DNA of 64,000 nucleotides from Monosiga brevicollis MX1. Lineage: Eukaryota > Opisthokonta > Choanoflagellata > Craspedida > Salpingoecidae. Below, one piece after another: positions 30,896 through 40,783 of this stretch. Made by a program: the position numbers and the translations under genes. Each line of letters starts with the position of its first letter. The first letter of the stretch is position 1. Location of the stretch: contig NW_001865044.1 in assembly GCF_000002865.3 (NCBI RefSeq), positions 1,309,858 to 1,373,857 of the forward strand, given 5' to 3'. The notes beneath the pieces are model-generated. The model was not told the origin of the DNA and did not search any database. It saw only the letters and a program-made list of their open reading frames with translations.

Positions 30896-33691
30896 TCACG
30901 CCGTTGGCTCGCCTGCGCTTGTGTCCTCTGCCTCATTGCCCGGAGTAAAGTCGGGCTGGAAGCTGCGGTAATCGGGACGAGTCGTGAAAAGGTTGATGCT
31001 CGAAAGATCACTCGCCTGGTACTCGATGGGCTCTCCCTTCTCGGCCGCCGCTAAATGCTCCGCCCACAGCTCTGCGGCAGGACCAATCATGAAGAAATCA
31101 AATCAGTCAAGGCGCCATCCACGCCTGCCCTCGTTCTTAGCCAGCTAAAACCCACATCCACAAGCAAGCAAGACTAAAGTCACGACCTTACCTTCGGTGC
31201 GGGCCTTGTCCGTCTTCAACTTTGGATCAGTTTCGAATCGCGTCTCGAGGAAACGCTTCAACGTTTCCCAGCCGCCACCAACTCGAACCATCACGTTCTA
31301 TCAATGGGCCGATGATGAGCGGGCAGCACGGCTGACATGACTCCGATACTGTTTCCATGTTCTAGCGGTCACGCCCAGCTCCCAAATCCATCTCAAAAGA
31401 CAGCTCGTACCTTCTCCGTGATGCGCAAAAGCACGGGCTTGCTTGCTTCGTCACCAAATACATACTTGCCCTCTGCCACACGATGCACCTGGCGTACCGC
31501 ACAGCTCGCCTGAGTTGGAAAAAGAAAGTTGACATGCTTGCACATCGCTGCTGCAGACTCCATTCACAACGCACCTTGTATGGCGGCTGATTGATGCAAG
31601 CATTGACCACCTTGTAGACCGCGGCATCCAGCTTATCCCCCTTGATTGGTCTACAGGCCCAAACCCCAAGTGGTGGATTAGATAAAACACAGCTGCCTAT
31701 CCATCAAATCCTTGCAGCGGGTGTCGCCATGGTACAAACCGCTGGCGCTTGAGAAAGCGGATCCGTTCGATCCACACAAGGCGAGGCACGCGAATGCCTC
31801 GTGTGCGTCGCGCAACGTCGTACAGGCTCCAAATGAATCGGCGCTCATCACGCAGCTACACCCACCCACCCGAGGTGTGATCAGACGGAAAGCATGAGCA
31901 AAGCGTCATCCATTGCGCAGGAGCAGCCGAGTCCATTCATGACTGTACCTCGGTCAGATCTTCCAACTCAAACACGTCTGGGTTCTCCAATCCCAAGGAA
32001 CGGGCCCACTCAATAAAGTTGTTGATGTTACTGTGGGCTTTGTCCGTGCCTGGCCATTGGCGAGAGAATGAGTCGCGAAAGCGCACGCGTCAATGGATTG
32101 GATGCACCCTCGATCCCGGAACCGCACAGCTGGCTTACCCGAACGCGCGATCGGCTCGTAACGGCAGTACTGCAAGGGGCGCGTGCGAATAAACTCGGCC
32201 AAACCCTCTTCGTTGGCTGAGATGGAAAAAGGACGACCAAAGGAAGATCAAATCAGAGAAAGCGGTACTGAGCAACCCAGCAAGACTGAAAATCGAACAT
32301 CCGACTCGAGGAAGCAGCAAGCGAGTAAGGCAATGACATTACCAGGAGTGTCAAACTTGAACAGCTCGAGGCGACGACGGTTGATACGGACGGGATCGTG
32401 CGCCGATGGCAGACGCGTGCGAATGCCCTGCAGAGCTGGCGCCTCAGGTCGAGGCACTGTGGCCCGCAAAGAGCACACCGAGAAAGCAGTGCGTGAGCAC
32501 GCAAACTTGGTACCAAAAGCCGGATAGCAACTACACCACGGCCCACCAAAACACACACACACACACACACACACAAAGGAGGAAAAAAAAAAAAAAACAG
32601 AAACAGAAACAGAAACAGAACCAGAACCAAAAGCAAACAGAACAAGGACAATCTGAATTGAAGCGTCGAGCAATATCATACCGGCAGCAGCACCGTTGGG
32701 GGCTGTGATGGTCGAGCGTGACTTGCTCTTGGGTGGGCCCGAGGCTATTGGCACAAAACAAGTGGGGTGCATCAAGAAGGTTAAGCTCACCAACGTCAGG
32801 CGCAGCCAGCTGACAATTGGATTCCTGCCCTGCATCACCGCTTTGCGCCAGTAAACGTACGTCGGCGTGCCGCAGGCGGTGCCCGCAGGCTACCAGATGA
32901 AGCCCTGCTCGTTGGGGGCTTGATGGAGGAACCCCTGGCCGTGTTCCCCTTGGCACCTGTATCTTTGGCTGTTCGACGCATGTCCGGCACCGTGAGCACG
33001 ATACAAGATCATCACGGCCTGAGCGCCTTGCTCTATAACGCGCATGGTGGATGCTGCATGCATACATACATGTTGCAGCAGTCTCGGCAGCTTGGGCTGC
33101 CTCTTCTGCGCGTAGTTGCGCCTCGTCACCATCAATGGCGTTGGCCAATTCGGCCAACAGGACGCCGTTCTGCATCTTCAATAGAAACGTGTTTTGTTGC
33201 AGGTTCGTGCCTAGCATCTCATTGACCCAGTCGCAGATATCCTCGCTATGTATCGTCAATCCACTCATGTGAGGTAGGTTACAGCCACAACTCGAGGCCA
33301 AGTGGGCACACCGCATGAAACATCAGGTCGCATGCCGATTCTCGCACCGGTAATGCGTCATCTGGCGATGCATGTTCATCTTCACTTCGTCCGTACGCAG
33401 GGCTTCCAAAGCCGCCTGTAAAACAAAGTGTACAGCAAAGTCATTCAACATGACCCAAATCGTCACAAGTTCCAAAGCAGCGCAAGCATGCCTGGTGCGA
33501 ACGCTCTTCAGCCTCAGCTTGCAGGCGAGCCTCCTATGGCACAAACCACGTGGCCAGCGCATGTCAGACTGCGTCGGACACCCGCGACGCCACGGCTTGG
33601 ACGCGCCACATACCTCCTCTTCGGCCTCGAGACGCTTGCGCTCCGCCTGCAGCATCCCACCCCAGGATGTGATATTTGAGCAATGCGCGAT

Positions 33692-33751
<60 letters not shown>

Positions 33752-39700: not shown

Positions 39701-40783
39701 GAGTTGAGCCAGAGTGCCAGATCCACACGATAGGCACGGAGGCGATCGTACGTGACACGATTGCGCTAAGTCACACATCAAAAACAAAAAGAAAAAAAAT
39801 CAATATAAAAGTTAGTTTCAGGGCGAGGCCGGGCCAACGGACGAGAGCTCATCTCCCACACAGAGGATAACGCAAACGAGGCTGCAACAAGCCGCGGACC
39901 TGGCCTGAAAAATAGTCCTCGAGATGAGGGTGATCCGAATCGTCGTAGATGACGCGCACAGAGCCCTGCACAAGCACCAAAAATGCAGACACACGGTCAG
40001 GGCCAGACCGTGCTGGCAGTGCCAGTGATGGCAACTTTGCCTGGTGGATTTGAAAGTGTATACAAAAAAGCTGCAGGGCTGTGTCGTTTGAACGTACGCG
40101 CTGCTCGGGTCCCCCAATGTAGCTAAACATGCTGCCACGAGAGGACTTGCGACGCTGGTCGTTGGGTACGACGGTAGATCGGCGCTCGTTGGCCAGATCC
40201 TGATCCCCACCACGGGATGATCGGCGCGGTTTGTACAGCTCGTCCTGGCTACGACGCCGAATGTCGTAGTAGCTTGGACGGAGCTCATCGTATGGGTCCT
40301 TGTTGTCGGATCTAACATGCAAAAGCATTGAGCAGCGAGAGAATGGCAAGCAGGACACCCCAAGGCAGGCTCTCAGTGATTGCGAGACATACCGGATAGT
40401 ACGGGTCAAGGTCACATCGTTGGAGCTGGCGCCTGCAATATAGGCATCGGCGAGGGCCGTGGTACACAGTGAGATGCATGAGGCCATGCACGGGGCCATC
40501 TTTGAGCAGGAGAGGAAATCTGGCGAGCATGCTTGGTCAGGCTCCACAAGCCCTGCCTTCTCACCTGTGCGGGACGTGGAGAGGGACGTGTCCTGGTGCA
40601 GAACGGGATCGGAGCGGCGGCGTTGTGTAGCTACACATGTAAGCGAGCCATGAATGTTGGTGAGCGTGTGCTTGCCTTCATGCAAGAAGCAAGTTGAAGA
40701 ATCGAAGAGCGTGGTCCGCGCGACAAACCATCATTGGAGGTGGAGGCACGCCGAGGCTCATAGAAGGAGGTACTGCGCGACAT
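30896..40783 (-). CDS. Double CH-GAS2 coiled-coil cytoskeletal crosslinker
   Basis: CH domains of the GAS2 type bind actin and GAS2 (GAR) domains bind microtubules, so this protein probably links the two. Start [18 protein letters not shown] is at 40783. The first CH domain is spread over exons with [52 protein letters not shown] and [12 protein letters not shown] (39.8-38.9 kb). The first GAS2 domain reads [20 protein letters not shown] then [17 protein letters not shown]. About 25 coiled-coil exons follow (38.3-33.4 kb). The second CH domain starts [35 protein letters not shown], and resumes after a linker at [20 protein letters not shown]. The second GAS2 domain reads [20 protein letters not shown] then [18 protein letters not shown]. 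It ends [15 protein letters not shown] at 30896. Several joins were checked in phase, including coil to second CH. A split into two genes cannot be fully excluded without transcripts. Confidence 0.82.
33492..34513 (-). other. Ladder of micro-exons encoding 11-residue coiled-coil units
   Basis: Eight consecutive exons lie at 34480-34513 (34 nt), 34356-34390 (35), 34206-34259 (54), 34075-34128 (54), 33960-33992 (33), 33788-33820 (33), 33614-33646 (33) and 33492-33533 (42). The three 33-base exons encode [22 protein letters not shown] and [11 protein letters not shown]. Introns are 77-141 bases. All joins keep frame: 34 plus 35 gives 23 codons. The intron after the 42-base exon needs a GC donor (CAG|GCATGC) to stay in phase. 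Confidence 0.75.
33695..33749. repeat. 55-base poly-A tract in an intron of the CH-GAS2 gene
   Basis: Uninterrupted A run, poly-U in the pre-mRNA, between two 33-base exons. It lies about 50 bases upstream of the next 3' splice site. Confidence 0.95.

Follow-up and report, generated by a model that had tools for sequence, protein, structure and literature searches.

The window, a stretch of 64,000 nucleotides of contig NW_001865044.1 of Monosiga brevicollis MX1, carries on its minus strand a gene of 53 exons that encodes 1,480 residues and a stop codon (30896..40783). In a hand-built model, a single open frame with no internal stop runs across all 53 exons from the ATG at 40783 to the stop at 30896; both ends, and the joining of exons in phase where checked, had been claimed in an earlier note on this DNA. 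In keeping with the species, a Sec1/Munc18 exon of this genome agrees at 44 of 44 residues with PDB 2xhe_A, the UNC18 protein of Monosiga brevicollis. The introns are 65-225 nt long (median 99; n=52) and 51 of the 52 are GT-AG, the exception being the GC-AG intron 41 (33416..33491), which a gene finder also picks. When exons were scored by the codon usage of the large exon of a paralogous gene, described below, the frame of the hand model was the best-scoring one in 51 of 53 (all except exons 12 and 45); because that source exon is mostly coiled coil, this test is aided by amino-acid make-up.

The gene finder was a simple one that took its codon usage from the same large exon; its splice letters came from the second gene and from a single-module locus (L033). 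At a penalty of -13 it returned one gene from 40487 to 30896 with 48 exons, reproducing 40 of the 53 hand-built exons exactly, with a score of 521, where five mononucleotide shuffles reached 3-7 and the opposite strand 31. A looser penalty of -9 gave 733, against 61-74 for shuffles and 232 for the opposite strand; an earlier setting, which gave 955 for the gene, 365-396 for three shuffles and 475 for the opposite strand, proved too permissive and was replaced. All four penalties tested gave one gene covering both modules, and two of them extended it to 29683. The hand-built exons missed at -13 were 1-5, 8, 9, 12, 14, 44, 45, 47 and 51. Exons 1-5 (39900..40783), none of which was found exactly, encode a Ser/Arg-rich N-terminal region (aa 1-147) and are the least certain part of the model; at the other end, exon 53 (30896..31071) holds the C-terminal tail and the stop and is called by both the hand model and the gene finder. 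A predicted protein record for this gene probably exists.

The domain order in the window protein is CH, weak GAS2, a 670-aa coiled coil, CH and GAS2, with Pfam run on the spliced protein as three pieces. All features lie on the minus strand. CH1, a GAS2-type CH domain, is encoded by exons 6-10 (38929..39765; Pfam stretch aa 162-282, 2.1e-11), and module 1 matches the human GAS2 structure 9kbx at 3.8e-28. GAS2-1 follows in exons 11-13 (38474..38850; Pfam stretch aa 318-370); it has GRE before the W in the hairpin and scores 2.7e-4, at 21.2 bits against a family cut-off of 21.3 bits. The rod occupies aa 408-1077 in exons 15-42 (33348..38178), that is, 28 exons where about 25 had been estimated. 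It contains a single proline, 45% of its residues are charged, and it shows a periodicity of 3.5 residues; its length, if the coil is continuous, would come to about 100 nm. Within it, at 33992-33614, exons 38-40 are three consecutive phase-0 exons of 33 nt, each coding for a Glu/Arg unit of 11 residues, and they look as if they had been duplicated singly, exon by exon.

The second CH domain is split. Its first half is encoded by exon 43 (33070..33245; Pfam stretch aa 1077-1124) and its second half by exons 48-49 (31740..32049); Pfam recognises it in two stretches at 2.3e-8, and module 2 matches the paralog CH2 with 42% identity (2.0e-18). Between the halves lies a Ser/Pro/Arg-rich insert of somewhat more than 100 residues, most of it encoded by exons 44-47 (32139..32968). 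Coding statistics are weak for exons 44 and 45, and 44, 45 and 47 are unmatched by the gene finder. Being symmetric (phase 1-1), each of the four exons at 32968-32139 could be skipped without loss of frame. GAS2-2 is encoded by exons 50-52 (31192..31650; Pfam stretch aa 1337-1407), carries the canonical VMVRVGGGW and has the best Pfam score among the domains of the window protein (6.8e-18, 64.7 bits), with a match to the MACF1 GAR structure 5ve9 at 1.6e-7; the match of module 2 to 9kbx is 3.8e-9. The CH-GAS2 pairs thus sit at 39765-38474 and 33245-31192, in agreement with the 39.8-38.5 kb and 33.3-31.2 kb proposed for them from the letters of the DNA, and the profile search of the spliced protein suggested at that time recovered all four domains, GAS2-1 just below its cut-off. 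CH and GAS2 are present at both ends; to call them two complete modules was generous, because GAS2-1 is degenerate and CH2 is interrupted.

A whole-genome search with each module led to another locus of this kind on the contig, at a distance of about 0.93 Mb (C51:411905-405742; L032). The second gene, also modelled by hand, has 13 exons and 1,570 residues and the same domain order as the window gene. Its Pfam matches are CH1 at 2.4e-10, GAS2-1 at 19.2 bits (below the cut-off), CH2 at 1.6e-11 and GAS2-2 at 63.7 bits. The two proteins are collinear, with aa 141-368 of the window protein aligning to 23-261 of the second (34%, 6e-36) and 1240-1407 to 1330-1498 (38%, 5e-23). They resemble each other in domain order, in the decay of GAS2-1 and in the loss of F108/F109 in CH2, and they differ in that the second has 13 exons as opposed to 53, modules only 34-38% identical, a shorter and, by eye, acidic CH2 insert, and a rod of about 930 aa, which contains five prolines and does not have a clear 3.5-residue periodicity over its full length. 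At an E-value threshold of 0.001, the flanks of the window gene (10000-30500 and 41500-60000) showed no similarity to the sequence around the second gene (C51:394101-420900). Further along the window, four minus-strand frames at 54880-61064 carry cation-independent mannose-6-phosphate receptor repeats (PF00878; 3.3e-67, 2.2e-15, 5e-10 and 5.8e-4, the last below the cut-off), and these are likely to belong to one IGF2R-like gene.

Exon 9 of the second gene, 3,591 nt without a stop, begins within GAS2-1, whose second half it encodes, continues through the rod and the complete CH2, and ends beyond CH2. Since one exon holds these parts together, a single protein with the double layout is close to certain for the second gene, and homology makes it very likely for the window gene as well. 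The same exon rules out that the layout is an artefact of wrong exon calls, and the presence of two diverged genes in one species makes it hard to write off as a gene-model error. For the window gene it also bears on a different reading, in which a CH-GAS2 gene (40.8-38.2 kb) lies next to a coiled-coil-CH-GAS2 gene (38.2-30.9 kb), or in which an internal promoter gives one locus long and short products. The gene finder scores a split at 38258-38197 slightly above the single gene (527.2 as against 521.3, with the extra gene uncharged), so window statistics alone leave the split possible, and an in-frame ATG at 38197 on the minus strand, within intron 14, could start a product without the first module. 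Against this, the intergenic gap in the split model would be only about 60 nt; A[AT]TAAA is absent from the gene's strand between 41896 and 30000, though the gene's own 3' end is likewise unmarked; and one exon of the second gene encodes both the end of GAS2-1 and the entire CH2. We regard this reading, in either form, as highly improbable.

Four other single-module or related loci were seen in the genome. The closest is a CH-GAS2 gene (L033, C56 ~2143440-2144640), which resembles the first modules: its CH domain is 40-44% identical to those of both, and two introns are common to one or both of them. Its GAS2 domain scores 26.7 bits in Pfam and, unlike GAS2-2 of the window gene, has Pro at the R252 position; no second module was present there among the best candidates for module 2. 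Over ~2143440-2150900, a coiled coil comes after this single CH-GAS2 module, as does an almost perfect tandem repeat of about 50 residues with a high content of Arg, Glu and Asp. At L024 (C48:863501-873000, minus strand, locus ~8420-4197), four PDZ stretches (PF00595, 9e-53) are followed, in the same orientation, by a coiled coil and by a GAS2 domain that scores 53.5 bits on a piece put together by eye, and this is possibly a single PDZ-rod-GAS2 protein. At L025 (C56:2130501-2140400, minus strand, locus ~6300-4225), a GAS2 domain (38.6 bits, again on a piece assembled by eye) comes after long tandem repeats of coiled coil, nearly identical to one another and all in a single frame, and a CH domain was not noticed. 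A further locus, L034 (C41:783900-784900), has a weak GAS2-type CH (1.4e-6 to module 1; an 83-aa piece without a Pfam family) followed, by eye, by a GAS2-like stretch.

The contacts of human GAS2 are defined by structures of the protein bound to F-actin and to microtubules, and the paper on them names nine in the GAR, or GAS2, domain (K237, R242, R252, G254, G255, G256, W257, K266 and H267) and reports that R252E, W257E and G255E lower the affinity for microtubules and that F108D lowers the affinity for actin (PMC12084551). Aligned to human GAS2 and counted over these nine named contacts, GAS2-2 retains 7 of 9 in the window gene and 6 of 9 in the second gene, and GAS2-1 retains 3 of 9 in each. 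Over the core six named there (R242, R252, G254-256 and W257), both GAS2-2 domains keep 6 of 6, and GAS2-1 keeps 3 of 6 in the window gene and 2 of 6 in the second. R252, the three-glycine hairpin and W257 occur together in both GAS2-2 domains and in neither GAS2-1, the glycine hairpin being gone from GAS2-1 in both genes. K266 is conserved in none of the four GARs of the two genes. Certain cysteines of the human GAR are zinc ligands; of the four human cysteine positions, one of which we take to be C270, none of the seven choanoflagellate GAR rows has Cys at more than one. The microtubule-side asymmetry between the modules is clear from these alignments.

On the actin side, identity to the human GAS2 CH domain ranges from 24 to 41%, window CH1 being at 41%, and the human row of the alignment begins at residue 36, so that Y22 falls outside the comparison. 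In the columns of F108/F109, the first of which is the residue changed in F108D, window CH1 has F,F and second-gene CH1 has F,K, as against D,K and E,G in the respective CH2 domains. At two other actin contacts, the E133 column holds Glu in both CH1 domains and in window CH2, and His in second-gene CH2; the R144 column holds Lys in both CH1 domains, Arg in window CH2 and Glu in second-gene CH2. T129 is conserved in none of the four CH domains. The actin-side asymmetry is less clear, because window CH2 retains E133 and R144, leaving F108/F109 and the CH2 insert as its basis.

For the history of the modules, those of the window gene are called M1a and M2a and those of the second gene M1b and M2b. 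A joint CH+GAS2 tree had six rows (the four modules, the single-module gene on C56, and human GAS2 as the one animal sequence), and a CH tree had 10, including four other CH domains of the genome as outgroup; from 22 CH matches in the genome, six had been translated and these four were used. Residues 1121-1230, the CH2 insert, were excluded from the M2a row in the module-2 genome search, the alignments, the trees and the intron comparison, and the partial C41 sequence was excluded from the trees. M2a and M2b split from M1a, M1b, C56 and human GAS2 at 100/99 in the joint tree and group together at 86/87 with CH alone. A separate duplication in each gene was rejected in the CH tree of 10 rows (p-AU 0.00657 for M1a+M2a; 0.00606 for M1b+M2b), and the double layout is therefore older than the split of the two genes. 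The group of M1, C56 and GAS2 had support of 43/49 in the CH tree and 100/99 in the joint tree; within it, M1a grouped with human GAS2 at 85/90 (CH tree) and M1b with C56 at 83/88 (joint tree), and a grouping of M1a with M1b was not rejected (p-AU 0.087). Support for the six GAS2-type CH domains as a single group was weak (59/70).

A grouping of the four modules to the exclusion of C56 and human GAS2 was marginally rejected (p-AU 0.046), which counts against a duplication inside the window gene alone. Introns give a further link between the modules. M1a and M2a share two phase-0 introns at the same alignment column, one after DLVQ/DLTE and one in the GAS2 domain before xVxVRVG, and M1b and M2a share one at [16 protein letters not shown], in phase 1. 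With eight introns in the aligned part of M1a and six in that of M2a, over about 266 columns and three phases, we estimate that about 0.06 shared introns would be expected by chance, against the two observed for M1a and M2a. The modules have the look of ancient copies of a single CH-GAS2 unit that carried introns. A bolder scenario, which we consider quite unlikely, is that a two-module rod predated the split of choanoflagellates and animals, that its modules divided the tasks, the N-terminal one serving actin and the C-terminal one microtubules, and so reached spectraplakin polarity independently, and that the single-module GAS2 of animals descends from the N-terminal module after loss of the rest.

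Taken at the level of sequence, the two ends of the protein appear specialised, one towards actin and the other towards microtubules. We favour, with moderate confidence, a reading in which this 1,480-aa rod of the CH-GAS2 kind, with a diverged module at each end of its coiled coil, is a polar actin-to-microtubule linker. From the alignments, CH1 would bind F-actin and GAS2-2 the microtubule lattice; the rod would dimerise, and the protein would span the distance between actin filaments and microtubules, with GAS2-1 and CH2 weak or regulatory. Such a molecule would have the polarity of a spectraplakin and be made of GAS2-type modules. The earlier note had proposed a symmetric rod with an actin- and a microtubule-binding unit at both ends. 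The large exon of the second gene bears out a single protein whose coiled coil has a module at either end; the equality of the two ends is not supported, since in the alignment to human GAS2 GAS2-1 is without its hairpin and CH2 without F108/F109, window CH2 keeping E133 and R144.

A symmetric crosslinker would have each end bind both filaments, either within one chain or through an antiparallel dimer that places CH1 beside the GAS2-2 of the other chain. That all four domains remain recognisable in both genes despite their large divergence speaks for it, as do E133 and R144 in window CH2; against its within-chain form stand, in both genes, a GAS2-1 without the glycine hairpin and a CH2 without F108/F109. 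A polar arrangement seems more likely than a symmetric one, which we hold to be rather unlikely. If only the rod and the C-terminal GAS2 mattered, and CH1, CH2 and GAS2-1 were structural, the protein would be a microtubule bundler. GAS2-2 does have the highest Pfam score, and in the same genome a module search over three minus-strand frames of ~9.5-kb stretches noticed no CH domain near two other GAS2 genes; set against these points, CH1 is 41% identical to the CH domain of human GAS2 and has both phenylalanines of one actin contact, and bundling alone would be a very unlikely role.

The proposed linker resembles two known families. The proteins known to crosslink actin and microtubules are either short GAS2 proteins or giant spectraplakins. 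With GAS2 and the GAS2-like proteins (GAS2L1-3, Drosophila Pigs) the window protein shares a GAS2-type CH domain followed by a GAR/GAS2 domain: CH1 has its Pfam match of 2.1e-11 and its 41% identity to human GAS2, and, among the matches listed, window CH2 scores 63-81 bits against GAS2-type CH domains and no higher than 18.5 against four other CH domains of the genome, the corresponding values for second-gene CH2 being 38-51 and at most 22.3. It departs from that family in carrying a second module in each chain, in the 670-aa coiled coil that separates the two modules and in its diverged residues; where the family has one CH and one GAS2 per chain, both genes have two of each. GAS2L1-3 and Drosophila Pigs have a one-module layout, and it is by this layout, not by sequence, that the window protein is set apart from them here. 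GAS2 domains of choanoflagellates are usually accompanied by a CH domain, and the double layout is not mentioned in the accessible text of that study (PMC9145010). The earlier statement that no described protein of this layout was known agrees with our search of the open-access literature, in which no description of a two-module CH-GAS2 rod was found.

Spectraplakins (MACF1/ACF7, dystonin, Shot) have tandem N-terminal CH domains and one C-terminal GAS2. The likeness to the window protein lies in a proposed N-terminal actin end, a long rod and the C-terminal GAS2 domain (aa 1337-1407, 64.7 bits). Pfam found one CH stretch in aa 1-407 and not a tandem pair, spectrin or plakin repeats were not among the eight families listed for the rod piece up to E=1, and EF hands were not found in the three pieces of the protein. 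The window protein would work like a spectraplakin and yet is not one; by domain type it is a two-module variant of the CH-GAS2 proteins. If it is a linker of this kind, there is another route to a polar linker, through rods that carry a CH-GAS2 module at each end and whose modules changed differently, and such rods offer a test of how linkers between actin and microtubules arose near the origin of animals.
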